Source: Polychytrium aggregatum
Taxonomy: Eukaryota; Chytridiomycota; Chytridiomycetes; Polychytriales
Direction: 5' to 3'
Length of the DNA stretch: 64,000 bases
Assembly: GCF_025602895.1 (NCBI RefSeq)
Contig: NW_026516324.1
Location: forward strand, 62,001-126,000
Part shown: piece after piece, positions 4,008 through 60,484 of the stretch
How the letters are laid out: each line of letters opens with the position of its first letter
Numbering within the stretch: the first letter of the stretch is position 1
Position numbers and translations under genes: made by a program
The notes under the pieces: model-generated
Database searches by the model: none
What the model was told of the DNA's origin: nothing
Seen by the model: the letters and a program-made list of their open reading frames with translations, nothing else

Positions 4008-7000
4008 TCAATGGCGGCCGGTGCGGGTGAAGGGACGGACATCGGGATACTCCTCGTCCTTGAGCTCGGTCTCCGCCGCCGTGGGCTGGTCGAGATAGGA
4101 CACCCGATCCAAGTGGAAGAGACTCTTCCTGACGACCAACTCGGGCGAGGGACACGGCGTCGGGTAGATCGAGCGAGTGTTGGTGTTGTCGACCCTGAAG
4201 GACAGGTCCATCAGCATCCGCATGAACGCAAGCAGGGCGTGGTTATCGGGCGATGGGTTGCGCCAGATGACTGTCCTGAACTTTTCGCGAGTGTCCTGCA
4301 GGACGGTCCAGCCAACGGAATCGGCAATCTCAAAGACACGCTTCTCGGTGATGACACTGCGAGTGAGTGAGTGAGTGAGTGGGTGAGTGAGGGGTGATTG
4401 CGATGGCCCACGATGTCCGCCATCAAACATGTCAATCTGCGACCCTCAATGCCAAGCACAGCATCGACTGACACCCACACTCACACTCACACTCCACTCC
4501 ACACACTCCTCACCTGTGCTCCGAGTCGCTGATGTGGAACACAAACTTGGACAGCGCCTCCTCCGAGCTGACAATCTCGGCAATCACCTTGGCAACATGG
4601 TCGACGGGATCCATGGTCCAAGTGACGGGACTGGCGTTTGCCGGGCAAATGCCGAGCTTGATGCATCCCTCGACGTATCGCCAGATATAGTCGTCTGTGT
4701 TGCACACTGGAGGATGGAGTGAACAGGGTGAGAAACAGTGTCAGTCGATGGATGGGTGCCACTCGACAAACAAGATCATCAACCCATGGCCAAGTCGAGG
4801 GAACGAAGGAGAGAATCTCCACCACATCACCACATCACCACACCACTACACCACACATCATCACACCACCACGGCTCACCTCCGTATCCGCTGTCGCCAG
4901 CAATGATTGCTGGCCGAATGATGGTTGCAGGCACGCCCCTCGATCGTGCCTTGTTGATCAGCTGCTCAGAGACCCACTTGGTCTGCGAGTAGCCGCCCGA
5001 CAGGTTCCAGTTGGAGTACATTTTCTCCTCGAGCGGCTTGTCGGAGCCCTTGGCCATGGCAATCGTCCCGATGGTCGAGATGTAGTGCACCACCTTGAGA
5101 TGGTGCGTCGTGGCCAGCTGCAGCACCGTCACCGTGCTGAGGACGTTTGTTGCCTTGAGCTCGTTGTAGTTGTAGAGCCAGTGCACCTCGGCGGCGTTGT
5201 GCACAATCATGTCGGTCTCTTCGCAAATCTCCTTCCATCGCTCGTCCGAGAGTGCCCATCGCTCCTTGGAAACGTCGCCGCGCAGACCAACCCACCGGTC
5301 TCGCACGTCATACCACGGATCGTTCTTGTTCCGCGATGCAATCACCAGCCTCGAGGCGTTGGAGTAGGTGCGGAGGAAGGCCAGTTTCTCGGTCTCGGTT
5401 CGTGCCAGACAGTAGATCTTGGCCCGAGGGAACTTGTGTGCCAGCTCAAAGATCAGGAATGCTCCGAGGAAGCTGGTTGCACCCGTCAGGACGATGCCGC
5501 GGACCTCCTTGGGATAGACAAACGGAGGGAAACCCTCGGCCGTCACACTCGCATCGTCGAGCTTGGCAGCCTCGGCAGCCAGATCGATTGTCGGCGGAAT
5601 CACCAGCTTGTCGTCGAGAATGTCGACGACCAGCTGGGCGGCATCCTTGGGACTCATGCTGTTCGACAGCAGGATCATTGGCGAGATCTCGACACCGTAC
5701 TCCTCCCTGAGGGCGAGGGCCAGGCGGCCGATGCTCAGCGAGTCAAAGCCGACGCCGCCAATGTAAAAGTTGCGGCCGTAGAGACCAGGGTTGTCCAGGA
5801 TCTGGCTGCTGAACTCGGAGATCTTGAAGGCAATCTTGGTCAAGAACGTTCTGGTGACCATGAGAGCCGGGTAATCGACCGCCTGGCCGTACTGCTCGAC
5901 GTTCTCGGCGATGCGCTTGAGCTTCTTGAGATCGACCTTGCCCGAGTCGTTGAAGGGGAATGCGTCGAGCTTGAGGCAGTTGTGGACGGGGACCTTGGAG
6001 ACGTTCAACAGCAAGAACATGTCCTCGACGACTCGGATGATATCGGCCGAGGTCAGTTCGGGGTTGTATCCTCCCTGAGGGATGTAGAACAAGATGATCT
6101 TCCTCTCGGAGGTGTGGATGAAGTAGCAGTCGGCGATGACCTGGGACAGGTGCTTGTGGACAAGCTCCTTGAGGCCGTTGAGGTCGACATAGACACCGTT
6201 GACTTTGATCTTCTGGTCGAATCTGGAGGGTGAGGTGTGAGGTGTGAGGTGTGAGGTGTGAGAATGAAAGTGATCAGTATCCAGCGAGCAAATGGATCGG
6301 AACCAAGAGTGTGGATGGCAGTTCTCATGGATCAAGCACACAATAGTCGCCATACTCACCTTCCAACAACACTGAACTCCTTGTCGCTGACCATCTCGAC
6401 CCAGTCCATGGTGCAGACTCGGGGCGAGCCATCCACGAGGAAGCCGAAAGTCGACAGCTTGTCGTTGGGATCAGCGTTGACAAAGTTCGGATGGTCCTTG
6501 GCAGGATGTTCGGGATCGACGGCAAAAACCAGGATTCCGCTGTTGGAGTACCGTGGATCGATGATCTCGCCTTTCTCGTCAAAGAGAAGGCAGCGCACGC
6601 CAGGTTTGGCCAGCTTGTAGACCAGCTTCTCTGGGATGGGGCTGTCGGCTGGAATCCGAAGAAATGAAAATGCTCCTACGACTCCTGCCTGGTGGAGTAA
6701 GTGCGTCAAGTCATTGCCAGCTCATTGATGATGCAAACCTAGTGACGTGGACTGTACCTCACTCGAGCCATATATCGACTGAATCTCGGCATTTGGGAAT
6801 CTCTCCCTCGTCATGTGGATGACACTCATTGGTACGAGTTCTGCGCCAATCAATATTTTCTTTGTTTTCGTCAATTTGACATTCGGGTTCCGGGAAACCG
6901 CGGTGCTGATGATCAACTTCATGAACGAGGGAGTCTGAGGGAGGATGAGTGACATCAGCATGTGAACAAAATTACTCCCGAATATTTAGTTGTCCACGAC

Positions 7001-9072: not shown

Positions 9073-9320
9073 ACATCTTGTGGGCATCATCGAACACACA
9101 AGTGAGACAAGCCGCTTGCTCAAGTGCAATCTTGCAATCGTTGTTCGTCGTTGGTTGGGAGCACGGTCTGGAGGCCGCGATTGTTTCCAGTCCCGGTTGA
9201 CATCGCTCGGGTTTCGCTGATTTCGAGAGCATCGCCTTGAACATATTCGGTCGATCTCCTGTGGTGACGATCAGCCGGCATTGATGTCGCGATGTGAGGG
9301 TGTGAGAGATGCATCCATTT
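9073..9320 (-). mobile_element. Decayed C-terminal fragment of a Fanzor (TnpB-like) gene
   Basis: The minus strand encodes PHRDINAG at 9296-9273, the RuvC-III motif of TnpB/Fanzor RNA-guided nucleases. Just after it, in another frame, comes TTGDRPNMFKAML, then a Cys-containing tail (CLTCVFDDAHKM). The DNA is clearly similar to the second relic at ~58.8-59.1 kb: both contain ggtcgatctcctgtgg and gattgtttcc in the same order. About 30 bases present there between HRDINA and TGDRP are absent here. RuvC-I, RuvC-II and the zinc finger are missing, so this is a truncated, non-functional copy. I see no terminal repeats marking a carrier transposon. Confidence 0.65.
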
Positions 9321-30180: not shown

Positions 30181-30937
30181 AGCCCAGATCTCCACACCCA
30201 TCCTGAAACCACCCCCCCCCAACCTTCACTTCGCTTCCGCTCTATTTTTTTGGATAGCCATCCTTTGGAACTGGCTGTTGAAACCCTTGCAGCATTATTG
30301 AATATGACAACACCTGATTGTATAACAAAAATCAAGTGTGTGGCGAACTGCGATGGCCAGCGCCCAGGGCAACACGATGTGTGGTCATTGGTCCAAAACC
30401 TGGGTGTCTCGCTACTTCCCTCCAAACAGCAGCAGAATCACAACCACCTGATATTTGATTTCGATAATCTCAGGAGTTCATGCTGACTTTGCCAATCCTA
30501 TCCTGTCGCCGCACTCAATCGCCAACTCGAACATGCCCCGCATATTGACCAACGCCATGATTATCGATATGCTGTTCGACTGTCGCAAGTATCGACTGGA
30601 TGTGCTCATGAAAACTTCTCAGAAATCGATCGCACAAGCCAACTACACATCTCTGATGGGTCCTCCCCTGGCAAGGAATTGCACCTGGTCTTCAAGCAGG
30701 GGAGCTGCGCAAGTCGCTCAGCACTGATTGTATTATGTTCCATTAACATTCCGAACGGCATAGAATTTGGTCATCCGCGATACTGTCTTGCTGCCCACTC
30801 CCGCCGTTACTTATACGGCTGTTGCTGCTTTCCATTCACATCATCGAACTTTAGAGGGGGGAGAGGGGGGGTACATATCAGAGATACGCAGCTCAAGAGG
30901 CTCTTGAAAGTATGGCGTGTCTCGAGCTGGCGTTTGT
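30181..30937. other. Convergent intergenic region, no gene seen
   Basis: It contains the 3' UTR of the coiled-coil gene (plus) and of the M36 protease (minus). It is A+T-richer than its neighbours, with C-tract (30211) and G-tract (30855-30870) runs. Confidence 0.6.
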
Positions 30938-33749
30938 TTAATCGCTGCAGGTTGCCGTCTCAGGCTGACACTGGGTTCCGTCGGCACAGTTGCCAAGGAC
31001 CACCCAAGAACCAGCGCAGATCAAGACGGTGTTGTCTGGGCCGCAGGAATAGGCGCCGGTCGAGCGACAAGCAGCACCCGAGACGGGAGTGCCCGGACTT
31101 GGCACAGGGTGGGAAGCCTCGTCGGTGGTGGTAGGGATGGGGGCATCGGTGGTGGTGGGGATAGGAGCATCGGTGGTGGTGGGGACGGGAGCATCGGTGG
31201 TGGTGGTAGGGACGACAGTAGTAGTCGACTTGGGGGTCGGTGGGACGCTGGAGGACTTTGGACCAGCACAAGCAGGAGGGAGGTCCTTGGCATCGACATA
31301 CGATCCTGCCTTGGCGCTGTAGCCGAGGCCGCGCTTGGCAAAGCCAGTCCAGATCTCACACAGATTGGCGCCGTTGTTGTTCTGCTGGTCGGCCTGGATG
31401 ATGGCGTTGCGGGCACTCACAAAGTCGGGGTTGCAAGGCTGCAGCTTGAGGCCGTCGATGACCAGCTGGAGAGCAATGTTGTTGCCCTTGCCGCTCTTGG
31501 AGTTCTGGATGTCGGGCTCGAAGCCGTACTTTTCGATGAGGTTCCAGGCCACCTCCATCAGCATCTGCGTCCAGATCTCGCCAACGTTGTGGACCTCGGA
31601 CGACTTTGCGACGGTGGCATAGGTCTCGGGGTTGAGGGTCATGTCGGAGGTGTACGGGTAGTGGCGGATGCCCTTGGGGTTGCCGACGGTGTAAGGAGCA
31701 GCGTAGATCGGGGTGTCTCGGTTGTAGGTGGGTTTGAGCTCAAAGATGTTGGCAAAGAAGTCGCTCCAGCCTTCGCCGAGACCGCCGGCGGTGGTGGTGC
31801 TGAGACAGTTGGCCTGGGCCGAGCCACCAGTGAGACGGTTCGAGACGCCGTGGCCAAACTCGTGGGTGATGATCATGTTGTCCATGGTGCCGTCGCGGTT
31901 GGGGGTGGTGGCGGTGAAGATGTACATGCGCATGCGGCCGTTCTGTCCATCGGGGGGAGTGGCAAAGTTGGCTGCAATGTGCGATGTGGTTAGTGTGGTT
32001 GACGTGGTAGGTGTGGTTGATGTGGTTGATGTGGTTGATGTGGTTGATGTGGTTGATGTGGTTGGTGTGGTTGATGGCGGACATGGGGCGACGGCATGGT
32101 GGATAACATCAGTTCCAGCATCGTGTGTGTGCCGCCCGTCGACCCACTGCTCATCCCAGCCCACCGCCCACTGCACCACCTCAATGACTCCTGCAGTCCA
32201 CCACTTGCCCACAGCTTCACTTGTCCCGCCACATGTCAGGCCGACAGACCACGGCCGCCTTGGCTGTGGGCTCGTACCTACCGTTGTTGGTGCCGCTGCC
32301 ATCCTGGGCATTGGCAATCACATAGTCGCCGCCCTGGCCGCCTTTGCCAAAGTTGTTGGTCTGGAAGTTGCCGCTGGCCTCGTTGAAGCCGTATCGGTAA
32401 AAGATATCGTGGGCCATGTTGTTCATGTAGAACAGCTGCGTGATGGCGGCGTTGACGTTGCTCTTGGGGTCCTGGGTGGTGTCGTACTTGAAATTGAAGT
32501 TGTAGTCGCTGCCGACGGTGGGGCGGGTGCCCTGGGCCTCGTCTTGGCCTGCAGGGTTGTCGTTCCAGTTCTCCTGGGCATGGACGTTGTTGCCCTTGGT
32601 GGTGGGATTGGCACCGCTGCCGTCGTCGTGCCAGCCGAGAGGCGAGATGTCCTGGTCGGCGGGGTTGGCGACCGGCGTCTGGGGGGTTTGCGAGATGTCG
32701 CCGTAGTTGAAGGGGATAACGTTGTAGGTAGTGCTGGGCCCGGCCTGGCTAAACTTGTTGACCCAGTTGGCGACGGCAACGACCTCGCCGGTCTGGCTGT
32801 CGACAAAGGCATCGAACCAGTCGTCGCCGCCCTTGGTATAGACGTTGATGTTCCAGACCTGCGAGACACCCGAGGGGCCCTGGTAGTACTGCAGCGAGGC
32901 CGTGATGGGGAGCTGGGCAAAGTCCTGGGCGCCGTCGATGACCGAGGTTGTGTTGTCCTTGACGGTCTCCTTGAGCTTGCTGGCGGTGAACTTGATCTTG
33001 GCCTTGGTCAGGAAGTTGGTCAGGGCCTTCTTGGCCGAGATTTTGGCGGCACGAGGCTCGAGGCCGCGCTTGGTGAGCGAGCTGTCGACCTTGGCAAAGG
33101 TCGAGCCGATCGAGAGCAGGTTGCCGTTGCTGTCGAGGTTGATGTTGGCGACGGCGTTGGCGATGGGCTGCCCGCCGATCAGCTGCTGGACGTGCAGGTG
33201 GTAGATGCCGTTATGGTCATCCTGGAAGCTGAGGCCAGAAGGCACAGGCGAGCGAGCGGGCAGTTGAGAGCGAGTGGGCAATCGAGAGTGAGCGGGCAAT
33301 CGAGAGTGAGAAACGAGTCCGAGGGAGGCAAAGACCCAGCGAACCACACCAGGCCCAGGTGCCAACGAGCATGTCGGATCGAGAGCGACAGGAGCCGATA
33401 TGCACAGGACATGGTGCAAGGCGCCAGCACGGCGGCAGACCCCGGTGCAGACGACATTGCCCGTGGCCCAGCTCCGCACTCTGACCGACGGCAGTACTCA
33501 CGAGGTGGTGATGGCAAACTGGCTCTGGCTGACGCCGAGCTTCTTGGTCAGGATGTCCACGGCCGTGGACTGCAGCGCTCCCAGGTCCAGCGGCTGGTCG
33601 ACCAGGTTGCTGACAACGTCGCTGACCTCGAACGACGGCGAGGGCCAGTACGAGTCTGGGAGACTGCCCAGGGCCTTGGCGGCGGCCGAGCCCAGAAGGC
33701 CAGCCAGGGCAACGCCCTGGAGCAGGTTGCGGCGGCGGATCAACACCAT
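30938..33749 (-). CDS. Secreted fungalysin-type metalloprotease (peptidase family M36)
   Basis: Three exons (minus): 33749-33502, 33228-32282, 31971-30938, sum 2229 nt (742 aa). The N-terminus is MVLIRRRNLLQGVALAGLLGSAAA, a signal peptide with an unusually basic start. A propeptide follows (FTP-like, with NGIYHLHVQQLIGGQPIANA). The catalytic domain has the zinc site HEFGH at 435-439 and the third ligand E465 in GGLGEGWSDFF. It also shows NNANFATPPDGQ and the late motif EVHNVGEIW, all hallmarks of M36. After ~residue 640 comes a Thr/Pro linker of TTTDAP repeats, and then a ~50-residue cysteine domain (ACRSTGAYSC...CAGSW...CADGTQC) resembling a small carbohydrate-binding module (CBM19-like). 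Expected role: extracellular degradation of host or substrate proteins, with binding to chitin or wall glycans via the tail. Confidence 0.93.
31985..32076. repeat. 9-bp minisatellite (tgtggttga) in M36 intron 2
   Basis: About ten imperfect copies in the 310-bp second intron of the protease gene. The end nearest the acceptor gives the pyrimidine/A-rich strand of that intron. Confidence 0.85.
33255..33310. repeat. 18-bp repeat in M36 intron 1
   Basis: Three copies of agcgggcaatcgagagtg with small changes, within the first intron of the protease gene. Confidence 0.8.
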
Positions 33750-54692: not shown

Positions 54693-57600
54693 ATGCCTGC
54701 CTCGGCCCCAAGTCTCTCTGAATCCACTCTCAGTCGTGCCTCGACGCTCCAGAAGGTGCAGTCGCCAGCAACCGCAGCCCCATCCCCAGCGGCATTCGTT
54801 TGACGTCGCGATTTCCGCTCGTGCAGCGGACAGTCGCGAATCTGGGTCCAGTCTTCTTCCTCCCACCCTGCTTCCTCCCACTGGCACGTCCCGCTGGCAC
54901 GCCTCACCGCCTCGATCTGACATCCTCTGCATCCGTCTCTGTATCCCACCGACTCGCCTCGCCACAGCTCCTCAAGTTCAAGAACATTGGAAAGGTTCGT
55001 ATGTCTCCGGCTGCCTCGGGCTGGCACCCGCTCGATCCAACAGGCAACTCAATTCTCGCTCTCCCCATATCCAGTTCGGCGGCATTTGCTTCCTCTACTG
55101 CTCCATTCTGGGGCCAAGTGTGCCTCAAATCCAGTCGCTCTTCCAGCAGGTAACGGGGATGCTTCCTCGCCTCATCTCTCGCGCTCACCTGGCCGCTTGA
55201 GATCATATATGCTCTGATTTCTGGAGCAATTACCGCACACTGCAGGAATACCCGTTTACGCCTCTTGATATCGACTGACGCCTCTTGATATCGACTGACG
55301 CCTCTTGATATCGACTGACGCCTCTTGATATCGATGCACCAACGTATCCTGCCTTGCGAACCCCTCCACCAACGTATCCTGCCTCGCCATGACACCACCT
55401 CCGACTCGGGACGCAGTACGGATATGTCACGATATCGCTGCTCTTCCTGGCGTTCGCCATTATCAGCGCCATCGGCGCACTCTTCATCATCGAGGCGATG
55501 CAGTGCATCCCCGGCAATCGCCACTTCCAGGGCACGATCGAGTACGGCACGCTCATCAACTTTTACTTCAGCCCCAAGATGCACTACGTTGGCCAGCTGT
55601 TCTTGTATCTCTCCCTCGTCTTCTCTAGCGCCGTCTCTATCATCCAGTGCATCCAGGTTCGTCGTCGCCATGAATGTCGCTGGTGTTTCTGCGACCCATG
55701 GTGTAGACTGGATGTGTCGCAACCGAATTGCTACGACCGACCCTCTCGACGACGCGGCAGCACGTCTGAATCGCCCCTCAATCTCGATATCGGCAATGGC
55801 CTCTGCCTCTGCCTCTGCATTCACTCCGTTTTGACACTGCTCGTCCATATTCTCTCCGTCCTCCTGCCATCTGCGCCCCTCCAGAACATGGATTCGATCA
55901 TCATTGACATCTTCAAGAGCACATGCGGGATCGGTATTGGAAACGGACCCAAAGGCTGGCACTGTGTCGGCAGCTCGGCCGTCGTTCATCCAGGCAACCA
56001 ATATATGGACTATGGCAACGGCGTCATGCTTGTGACTCTGGGCACGCTGGTACGTCCTCGACCGATACTCTGGTGGCGTCCGAGCTCTGGGGCGACGCAG
56101 GACGTGAACAGATGGTCGAGCCAGTCGAGGCGATCATCTCTTGGCATCGAATCGGGTCATCTTTGTGAGAGGGACATGGCAAAGAGCCTGAGCCGGGTGG
56201 ACTGGATTGCCGGCCATGCTAACGGTTGTGCGCATTCTTGCTGTCGCCCACCGGCTGGTTTGCAGGTCATGGTCATGGTAATCGTTCCTCTCTCGCGATC
56301 TAGTCTCAACGACAACATTTACGTCCAGATCGGTGAGCTGCCTCCTCCCTCTCTGCCAAATCTGCGTTCCGAGATTACCTTCCGGACGAACCCGATTTCG
56401 AGCCGGGTCGCTCCAGAACCTGCAGTGGACTCACCTTCAGGATCATACTGCCGACATAATCGCCTATTCGCGAGCACCAATGCGCTGACCCTCTCCTGCC
56501 CCCTCAATCGCACCTTGCCTAGCTTCGTTCTTTGTCACAATCGCCGTGTTTGGGTTGTGGTTGGGCGTCTCTCTCTATGCGGGCGCGACGAGCGGCTGGC
56601 AAGCCATTTCGCCCTTTGGCCAGACACCCGACGGCGGCGCATTCGGTCCGATTATGCTGAGCTATGCCTTCATCACGGTGGTTCCGTCGTGGGTCAACCT
56701 CAAGGAAAAGTCCATCAACGTCCAGCGGACGATCTGGGAGTCAGTTGGGATCTCGTTTCTGACGTACATCATTGTTGGGCTCATTCGTAAGCATTTCAGT
56801 CATGGAATCAGTCGTGGCCATATCGCTATATCGCTATATCGCTATATCGCCATATCGCCATATTGCCATATCGCCGCAGCATCTGACACAGATCCCTCGC
56901 CATCCTCCTCACACGCACACGCACATCTGCAGCCGCCCTGGCCTTCAGCATCGACAGCAACTCGAATCTCCTGCTGGTCTTGAATACCCGAAGCCTGATC
57001 TTTCGCATCGCCAGCTATCTTTACGTCATCCTCGTCCTGATATCGTCCATTCCAGTTTACATCATTGTCAGCTACGACAACTTGATGCAGAATAAGGTCT
57101 GCTCATCGCGTAAGTGAAGACGGCCATGTGCCACACTCCCGCCGCTCTGCTTGGCCGATGCCTCGACATCTCCGCAATGGGATATGCAATGTGGTTCGCA
57201 GGTGCATCGCTGACCAGCCGCCGAGGGTTTGTCTAGACCCAGCTGCGGCGTACGGTGGGCTACTCTGCACGGGCTTTCTTTCATACACTGACTCAACTCT
57301 TGTCCGCAGCGGTGGCAATCGTGCTTTGCTATATCGTGCCCTGGCTACTCGCCGTCCCTTTCCTCGGCGGCCCCTGGCTCAGCATCATCACCAACTGGTC
57401 GTCGGTGCTGTTTGTGTCGATTGCAAACATGATCATCCCCTTTGTGATCTACCTGAAAGCCGTCAGCTTCCGAAAGGCATACAACTCGAAGCGCGAGCTC
57501 ACACCGCACCAGAAGGAGCTGCTCAGATCCATCCACAAGCCGTCGAACCGAATCATCGAGTACCTTGACCGGGACTTTGCCGACCCCAGCAATGTCGGCG

Positions 57601-58757
57601 AGCGCGTGCTCGAATTCATCCGCTCGCTCACCGGATCATCGAGGACGCCGACGATGCAGAGCCGGAGTATCCACGAAGAGCCCGGCAGAGGACGATCGAG
57701 CACCGGCTCGCGGGAGTCGCGAGGCTCAGTCGGTGGCTCTCCCTCGAGCAGCCCGGTGTTTGGAGCGATGCTGACTGTTCCCATGGCCGCTGGCCGACAG
57801 TCGAAGGACTTTGACCCCTTTCGCGGGCAACCGGCGGCGCTCGAGGAGAACAGGGACATCAAGGATATCAAAGACGTCAGAGACATCAAAGACTTCAAAG
57901 ACGGCAAAGACAGCAATGCAAGTGGCGTCGATATTGATGAAATGCTGGAGATCTTTGGCGATGTCGTTGACCCCGACCTCGACGACGACGAGCGGAACAG
58001 GAACCCCCAGTCGCGGGTGCCACCGTTTGAGATTCCCGAGATTCGCATCTACGGCCCCGAATCGAGCTCCGAGGCCGTGAATGTGATCCAGTTCGCAACT
58101 AAATCCTCGATCAAGCCGGCAGCAGTGCCATCCGCAGACGAAGGCCGAGGCGACGACCGCCAGCGCGGACTCTCTGTTCAGAAGCTGCGAGAGAAGACGG
58201 CCTCGCTGATGTCTCGCCAGACCGGAAGCGCCCTCAGCCTGTCTTTCTACGGCATCAAACCCTGGGGCTGGTCCAGCGGGCCATCCTCGCCGACCACCGC
58301 CCAGGAGGTGCCCAACCTCGATCGGCCGGCAAGCGACGACGCATCGATCCGGTCGTCGCCCAAATCATCGCCCCTGGATCCGCCCTGCCCTGAAATCGTG
58401 GAGCCTTCGAGCGAACAGCCATCGCCCAAGATGGGATGGAGCGATATCCCGCTGGGAACCGCCACAACGAATCCATACAGCCGATCCAGCCTTTCGATCG
58501 CCGAGAGACGTCCCGAGAGCCTGGCCAGCAAGCCGCGACCACAGCCGCCGCTGCGGCAACAGTCGATCGACACGGTGTCGTCCCTGCGGCCGGGAACGCT
58601 GCCGATCCACCCGCAGTTTGTGACGCCGGTCTTTCGGTCGCTTCCCAAGTCGATCCCGATCTCGGGGCTGTATGTGGCCTATGCGTCGGTGCTGATCACC
58701 CTGGCGGTCTCGGTGGTGTCGGTCGTCAATCTTGTGACGCAGCTGTCGCAAAACTGA
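54693..58757 (+). CDS. Polytopic membrane protein, AAAP amino-acid-transporter-like
   Basis: Nine exons: 54693-54755, 54968-54994, 55075-55149, 55417-55656, 55885-56049, 56266-56332, 56523-56786, 56933-57109, 57310-58757, sum 2526 nt (841 aa), phases consistent. About ten TM helices are packed into residues ~25-430, e.g. FGGICFLYCSILGPSVPQI, YGYVTISLLFLAFAII, VGQLFLYLSLVFSSAVSII, FFVTIAVFGLWLGVSLYAGA, YLYVILVLISSIPVYIIVSY, AIVLCYIVPWLLAVPFLGG and NWSSVLFVSIANMIIPFVIY. The pattern (VPQIQSLFQQ, EAMQCIPGNRHFQGTIEYGT, LDDN-like LNDNIYVQI, LNTRSLIF) matches fungal AAAP-family proteins. A ~350-residue disordered loop (KDIKDVRDIKDFKDGKD repeats, Ser-rich) precedes a last C-terminal helix (LYVAYASVLITLAVSVVSVV). 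Likely a vacuolar or plasma-membrane amino-acid permease or sensor. The first donor (54755 or 54797) is uncertain. Confidence 0.8.
55261..55334. repeat. 20-bp minisatellite (cctcttgatatcgactgacg) in an intron
   Basis: Three full copies and a partial fourth within the intron 55150-55416 of the AAAP-like gene. Confidence 0.9.
56818..56877. repeat. 8-bp repeat (tatatcgc/catatcgc) in an intron
   Basis: Seven copies in the intron 56787-56932 of the AAAP-like gene. Confidence 0.85.
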
Positions 58758-58799: not shown

Positions 58800-59430
58800 G
58801 TTCAAGTCATGGTCTGTTGCAAATACAATTTACAGTCTATCCAGAAAGAGGACAGTTCCTTCCTGGCATCAGCGACACAAGTCTGCTGATCTGTAGACTT
58901 CAGTGGGCAGGTCGTGAGATTGTTTCCCGTCCTGGTTGGCAATCGAGTGGTTTTGGTTGGTTTGGGAAACATGGTCTTGAATACACCCGGTCGATCTCCT
59001 GTGGCGATGATCGACTGGCATACCGAGATCATGTTCCTGGCTGCATTGATGTCTCGATGTGGGAGTGTGGTGGATGCATTCGACCCTCTGCACAGCTTCA
59101 TGGTTTCTCGATATCAAGATGCTCAGCCTTCTCGAGTCGCTTGGCTTCCCGACAATGTGAGCACACCTGGGATGTGTTGAACTCGTTCACCGAGCACACA
59201 TGGATCTTGGAGACGGATCGGTCTGGTGGGCCTCTCTGGTGGTGGTGGAACTGCTCAAAGTACCGAGCGAACCTGAGTCTCCGTGGGCTGGATGCATATC
59301 CCCTCCCCTGTTTCCAGGATGCATTCCCAAAGGCAATCACCACTTCGGTCTCCTTGGACATACTTGCTTGGCCATGAATGCGATGAGTGGAAGTGTATTC
59401 AGGTTCCAGAAAAAACACTGTCATGGCCCA
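58800..59430 (-). mobile_element. Fanzor (TnpB-like) relic with RuvC-II, zinc finger and RuvC-III motifs
   Basis: On the minus strand, 59424-59098 encodes EVVIAFGNASWKQGRG (RuvC-II region), then VCSVNEFNTSQVCSHC, the conserved vxExxTSxxCsxC segment of TnpB/Fanzor. In a second frame, 59101-58802 encodes LPHRDINAARNMI (RuvC-III, with the catalytic Asp) and ATGDRPGVF with a Cys-containing tail. The two parts sit in different frames around 59100, so the open frame is broken, and the RuvC-I/N-terminal half is not convincing upstream, although FGCIFIDPGWSF at ~59560-59520 might be its remnant. The sequence is homologous to the relic at 9.1-9.3 kb on the same strand. Fanzors are eukaryotic RNA-guided DNA nucleases carried by transposons. 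This copy looks dead; no terminal repeats or carrier transposase were found. Confidence 0.75.
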
Positions 59431-60484
59431 AAACGGGGTGTTCCCATTTCATTCTGGAAGCGCTGTAGTACTCAGCCCGGCACGATCCCGTCGGCGATCA
59501 TGGAATCGCTGAACGACCACCCGGGATCGATGAAAATGCAACCAAAGATCTCCCGCCATTCGGACATGTTCTTGTCCTTGGCCATGCAAGACTCTGTCGC
59601 CGCGCTTGGCTTGACTCCCGTTGTTGTTCCCCCGTTGTCGTTCGCTGATCGTTCCCACACCGACACCGACGATCCCATCCAGCCCAGCCCAGCCCAGCCC
59701 AGCCCAGCCCAGGCCCAGCCCGATCGGCCCCCGCCCGAGAGCGTCTCCCGACGGGAGAACCGATGGCGCGCAGAGTCTCTCCCGCGCTCATGCCCTCTCA
59801 TCCTTCCTCCCTCCCTCCCGATCCCCTCCCCAGCTCCGTCTCCGCACCCGGCTCTCATCTTCCCGCCGGTTTCCTTCCTCCCCTTCGCCCGCTGTGGTCG
59901 AGCAGCATTCTTCGTCGTCCGCGGCTATCCCTCCCGCTCTCTCTCTCGCTCTCTCCCTTGCTTTATCTGCCCAAATCCATATCACCCGCAACAACAATCT
60001 CTCAGCACACACCAGACACCCACGCAGATCCGACGCCTCTCCATCGCCTGCTTGGATCACTTACTTCCATTCGATCGTAAGCAGACCCGAGTTCCTCCTT
60101 GCTCCTCGCTTCTTTGGCCTGCTGTTCTGCTTCGCCCGGGCTTGGGGGCGGGATGTGCTCTGCTCAATGCTTGTCGTGCCCCCGGTCGTCTCCACTGACC
60201 ACTCTGTTTCTTGATCTGCTGCATCCCCGTCGACAGGCCCTCTGCGAACACTGTTTTCGCCAGTCGCCATTTGCCCAGTCAATACAAGTCGCTGCCGACA
60301 CCAGCCACCGGCAGTGCCGAGTGAACCATTCTTGCCCTCAACGTGGGCCGTTCCCTTTCCCATTTCCGTGGTTCCGATACATTCAGTACCTGATCAAACT
60401 CAAACGAAAGAACCGAGACATCTCACCCAAAACAAGATAACAAAGTCACAAGAATCAGCCTAAAGAGAAACTCCCATCCCATTC
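59431..60484. other. Region between the Fanzor relic and the last gene
   Basis: It has a CAGCC-type pentamer repeat (59685-59725), C/T-rich tracts (59800-60000) typical of a fungal promoter and 5' UTR, and A-rich sequence before the ATG at 60485. ORFs up to 330 codons here are Pro/Ser-rich without domains. Confidence 0.5.
59685..59725. repeat. cagcc pentanucleotide repeat
   Basis: About seven copies upstream of the last gene. Confidence 0.85.

Follow-up and report, generated by a model that had tools for sequence, protein, structure and literature searches.

Probable remains of a dead Fanzor1 gene, in two decayed copies, in a fungal-looking genome

Within a 64,000-nt stretch of DNA (the window), from a eukaryotic genome that looks fungal, we identified a minus-strand relic at 58805-59448. 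It is very probably what is left of the 3′ part of a dead Fanzor1 gene that a DNA transposon once carried. By comparison with SpuFz1 and its relatives, the ancestral gene, when intact, would have encoded a nuclease of the RuvC fold that cut double-stranded DNA beside a short motif under the guidance of an RNA supplied by the right end of the same element. The surviving part encodes only the stretch from RuvC-II to RuvC-III and beyond, with the alternative catalytic Glu, three zinc ligands out of four, the third catalytic Asp and a GxRPxxF tail. Judging from its sequence, the relic in its present state can neither fold as a nuclease nor act as one. It is a commonplace transposon fossil from an enzyme family already known in fungi, and is no evidence for a working RNA-guided nuclease.

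Reading frames and motifs of the relic

The relic consists of two minus-strand reading frames, at 59101-59448 (frame A) and 58805-59113 (frame B), with a frameshift between them near 59100. Frame A, translated from 59448 to 59101 as ...VVIAFGNASWKQGRGYASSPRRLRFARYFEQFHHHQRGPPDRSVSKIHVCSVNEFNTSQVCSHCREAKRLEKAEHLDIEKP*, holds the RuvC-II region and the first half of the zinc ribbon, and Fanzor-like sequence is discernible in it only from about 59350 down. Frame B, translated from 59113 to 58805 as YRETMKLCRGSNASTTLPHRDINAARNMISVCQSIIATGDRPGVFKTMFPKP..., holds the second half of the zinc ribbon, RuvC-III and the C-terminal tail. The frameshift linking the two frames, together with the in-frame stop of frame A (59098-59100), occupies 59098-59113 on the minus strand.

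The earlier note had read GNASW, VNEFNTSQVCSHC and HRDINAARNM, in that order, as landmarks of a TnpB/Fanzor protein, and all three are indeed present on the minus strand in the order claimed. GNASWKQGRG (59299-59328), the RuvC-II glycine motif read from the sequence, has as counterparts GDWS in SpuFz1, GNWS in PpFz1 and GNWG in GtFz1; it was placed by motif and order, the profile alignment proper beginning further down. The segment VNEFNTSQVCSHC (59152-59190) contains the alternative catalytic Glu (codon 59182-59184), the T-S-x-x-C motif and the first CxxC pair, following published fingerprints (PMC10711439, PMC3627910), and the Glu lies six residues ahead of the first zinc-finger Cys (E-FNTSQV-C). 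Comparison with the Fanzor1 chains showed that KLCRGSNA (59075-59098) retains the third zinc Cys and reads Ala at the fourth position. HRDINAARNM (59030-59059), identified from the sequence, PF07282 and the Fanzor1 profile, is RuvC-III with the third catalytic Asp. Its frame differs from that of GNASWKQGRG and VNEFNTSQVCSHC, so a frameshift near 59100 interrupts the gene.

Beyond RuvC-III comes TGDRPGVF (58979-59002), which comparison with SpuFz1 and PpFz1 identifies as the GxRPxxF motif conserved at the C-terminus of Fanzor1 proteins. Starting at RuvC-III, the relic (RDINAARNMISVCQSIIATGDRPGVF) aligned without a gap to the last 26 residues of SpuFz1 (RDMLSTCNMLLIVRSMLDGHGRPEVF), so that TGDRPGVF stands at the same distance from the RD as the SpuFz1 tail, RDMLSTCNMLLIVRSMLDGHGRPEVFSR. 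The form GxRPxxF or RPxxF is common to the relic, SpuFz1 (GHGRPEVFSR) and PpFz1 (KQRPPLFSR). The TGDRPxxF tail, which had been taken as lineage-specific, is thus a conserved Fanzor1 end seen in both of these enzymes. An end common to distant Fanzor1s can aid the recognition of fragments.

Homology to Fanzor1

We searched with PF07282 (OrfB_Zn_ribbon / Cas12f1-like TNB), the zinc ribbon of TnpB, Fanzor and Cas12f. Frame A alone scored 20.4 bits (E = 5.8e-4), below the curated cut-off of 26.3 bits, and a read-through of both frames scored 31.2 bits (E = 2.5e-7), above it. We then used a Fanzor1 profile made only from the C-termini of three solved structures, SpuFz1, PpFz1 and GtFz1, with the relic excluded. 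A bait, which was a rough consensus of fungal and oomycete Fanzor1 C-termini and entered no profile, retrieved GtFz1 (9cer), PpFz1 (9cf0) and SpuFz1 (8gkh) from the PDB, and their C-termini were then completed by profile search. Among the 1303 six-frame ORFs of the window, frame A ranked first (E = 0.0013) and frame B second (E = 0.036) with this profile.

Chance resemblance in non-coding DNA was considered because the single-frame scores, 14.9 and 10.2 bits for a relic of about 120 alignable residues, are modest. As the relic join had been picked by eye, a control free of any selection took all 1372 neighbouring different-frame ORF pairs of the window, joined them mechanically and ran the Fanzor1 profile over them. 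The relic pair ranked first of the 1372 (19.8 bits, E = 4e-5), the best unrelated pair reached 6.2 bits, and the remaining high-scoring pairs each included frame A or frame B. The two rankings refute chance: both halves came out on top independently, adjacent and in order, and HRDINA and TGDRP recur in a homologous copy elsewhere in the window (described below), leaving this explanation a negligible probability. The Fanzor identity proposed in the earlier note was upheld by PF07282, the Fanzor1 profile and the position of the alternative Glu.

An alternative catalytic Glu together with DPG in RuvC-I is a fingerprint of Fanzors and few relatives (PMC10711439). In the fingerprint [TS][TS]xx-C4 finger-x(5,50)-RD (PMC3627910), the relic has TSQVC, the first CxxC and the RD, with Ala at the fourth Cys position. 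G500 and E536 have been reported as extremely conserved in Fanzor1 (PMC3627910), and their spacing matches the 36 residues that separate the GDW glycine from the DEY Glu in SpuFz1; the relic has both the RuvC-II glycine and the alternative Glu, with a longer loop between them.

A source in a Fanzor2 or an IS607-type prokaryotic TnpB was weighed against Fanzor1, as the alternative Glu, T-S-x-x-C and RD-x-N-A are common to pro-Fanzors and Mimivirus L79 (9b0l), and the zinc ribbon is also as in the relic. The relic pair, however, scored 11.1 bits with a Fanzor2/pro-Fanzor profile (18 C-termini from pro-Fanzors, related TnpBs and viral relatives) compared with 19.8 bits for the Fanzor1 profile (three sequences), although the former has six times more sequences. 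In addition, the RuvC-II stretch of that group is unlike the relic's, which lacks its LPxFETSxM and RxMLxxxHYRF stretches, and the group has no RPxxF end, whereas the relic carries one as in SpuFz1 and PpFz1. A Fanzor2 or TnpB origin is accordingly improbable, and the lower score with that profile suggests that the relic is Fanzor1-like, which narrows the Fanzor assignment.

The closest parallel is SpuFz1 of the SPu-1 element of Spizellomyces punctatus, which has the RuvC-II glycine, the alternative Glu with TSxxC, CxxC, the RuvC-III RD and the GxRPxxF end in the same order. In contrast to SpuFz1, the relic is only the C-terminal end, is frameshifted and has lost the fourth zinc Cys, and unlike for SPu-1, no inverted repeats or guide-RNA region were recognised around it. 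The motif order is also that of PpFz1 (Parasitella parasitica), which ends in RPPLFSR, like the relic's RPxxF, and of GtFz1 (Guillardia theta), in which the distance from the Glu to RuvC-III is similar to the relic's; these two are intact enzymes, and the relic's loop from the RuvC-II glycine to the Glu is longer.

A PDB search with the relic sequence alone returned only designed repeat-protein artefacts. Searches of IMG/VR with the fragment, with an alignment including the fragment and with the Fanzor1 profile found no relatives of the relic, and four degenerate DNA patterns run against viral contigs retrieved TnpBs and noise but no Fanzor1. The viral contig IMGVR_UViG_3300014613_000035 carries near 9214-9281 on its minus strand a TnpB-like fragment whose sequence, VNEAWTTQTCFVC...HDRDVNAALN, includes an alternative Glu.

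Decay of the relic and its second copy

The third zinc Cys is kept, and the fourth, which completes a C-x4-C in SpuFz1, PpFz1 and GtFz1, reads Ala, so that the C4 finger is broken. Fanzor1 proteins also have a kinked-helix REC2 and a WED domain with a TDG motif (PMC10711439); no RuvC-I, REC or WED was recognisable in the relic, RuvC-I being the one sought by profile. The sole upstream DPG candidate, IFIDPG at about 59530, was rejected as RuvC-I: it lies in another frame about 75 residues away, too close for the expected 125-275, it scored -1.4 bits with a RuvC-I profile, and a similar string arose in about 1-4% of shuffles. A missing DPG or RuvC-I is expected of a fragment, and limits what remains of the gene rather than its kinship.

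A living, intron-containing gene whose exons are misread as a broken frame would also produce two frames, and a nearby probable fungal gene, an M36 peptidase split over two frames, seems to bear an intron. The break, however, interrupts the zinc ribbon itself, so that splicing there would cost the protein needed residues, and the distance from the Glu to the Asp already matches that of GtFz1 without any removal; on this spacing an intron was ruled out as the source of the frame break. The lost fourth zinc Cys, the lack of RuvC-I and copies that differ without third-position bias also speak against a living gene, which we regard as very unlikely.

A second, more decayed copy, absent from the earlier note's description of the window, was found at 9179-9314 on the minus strand, colinear with the first by blastn (75% identity over 104 nt, E = 4e-15, and 84% over 37 nt). 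It reads HRDINAG* (9277-9294) and TTGDRPNMFK (TTGDRPNMF at 9239-9262), and between these lacks 25 nt of the first copy in a gap flanked by ATGC repeats. No zinc finger was recognisable upstream in the second copy, and homology between the copies was not significant beyond 58918 or above 59079. Across the 26 aligned tail codons we counted 22 differences, of which 12, 4 and 6 fall at the first, second and third codon position; each of the 13 affected codons specifies a different amino acid, so that no codon change is synonymous. With no third-position bias, there is no sign of purifying selection, and neither copy looks alive. The presence of a second decayed piece 50 kb away indicates a dispersed, repeated family in this genome.

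These observations bear out the description of the sequence as a relic: it has a frameshift and a stop, lacks one zinc ligand and the whole N-terminal half, and is accompanied by another decayed copy. The Cys-containing part past TGDRPxxF (TTC...TCV), which the earlier note had made part of the tail, fared differently: its similarity to the second copy was equalled in 36 of 500 shuffles, so it is not significantly common to the two copies and may not be protein at all. A possible third copy at 30556-30627 on the plus strand scored 11.3 bits against a nucleotide profile of the two copies (best of 20 shuffles, 7.7 bits), has no matching protein motif and is doubtful.

Element ends and genomic setting

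The earlier note had also pointed to terminal repeats of a carrier transposon and to conserved non-coding sequence past the 3′ end as features to look for, and neither was recognised. No credible inverted repeat was found around the relic, a single 14-nt pair at 86% being probably due to chance, and no target-site duplication was recognised around it. Past the 3′ end, the homology between the copies stops as given above, and 150-nt stretches downstream gave no guide-RNA-like fold, folding no better than shuffles (z = -0.71 and -0.87; second copy, +1.33). A search against Rfam gave no match.

These results bear on the idea of a ghost locus, in which the protein is dead but a guide RNA continues to be produced from the right end and serves, in trans, an intact Fanzor1 encoded at another locus of the genome. 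Such guide-RNA-only loci without protein exist in S. punctatus, where partial copies are common: 134 ghost loci have been reported alongside 42 loci that carry a Fanzor gene, whole or in part (PMC10432273). At the relic, however, the unremarkable downstream folding, the end of the copy homology at 58918, and the lack of terminal repeats and of an Rfam match leave little room for this idea, and we give it only a slight chance. As a dead Fanzor1 fragment, the relic adds one more eukaryotic genome with a (now decayed) Fanzor1 family and helps to trace where Fanzor1 elements have been.

The relic lies in the gap between plus-strand reading frames at 57237-58757 and from 60464 onwards. The G+C content of its region (58802-59470) is 0.51, in the lowest 3% of the window, and the observed/expected CpG ratio is 0.59 against a window mean of 0.94, which puts it in the lowest 0.7% of 669-nt windows. 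Methylation at CpG sites together with decay of the element could account for these low values, as could a foreign composition.

Elsewhere in the window, an M36 fungalysin metallopeptidase with its propeptide was found at 30941-33497 on the minus strand, split over two frames, probably by an intron, an arrangement consistent with a fungus that has introns. The minus strand at 4830-6470 encodes an NAD-binding 'male sterility' thioester-reductase-like domain (PF07993, E = 6.6e-49).
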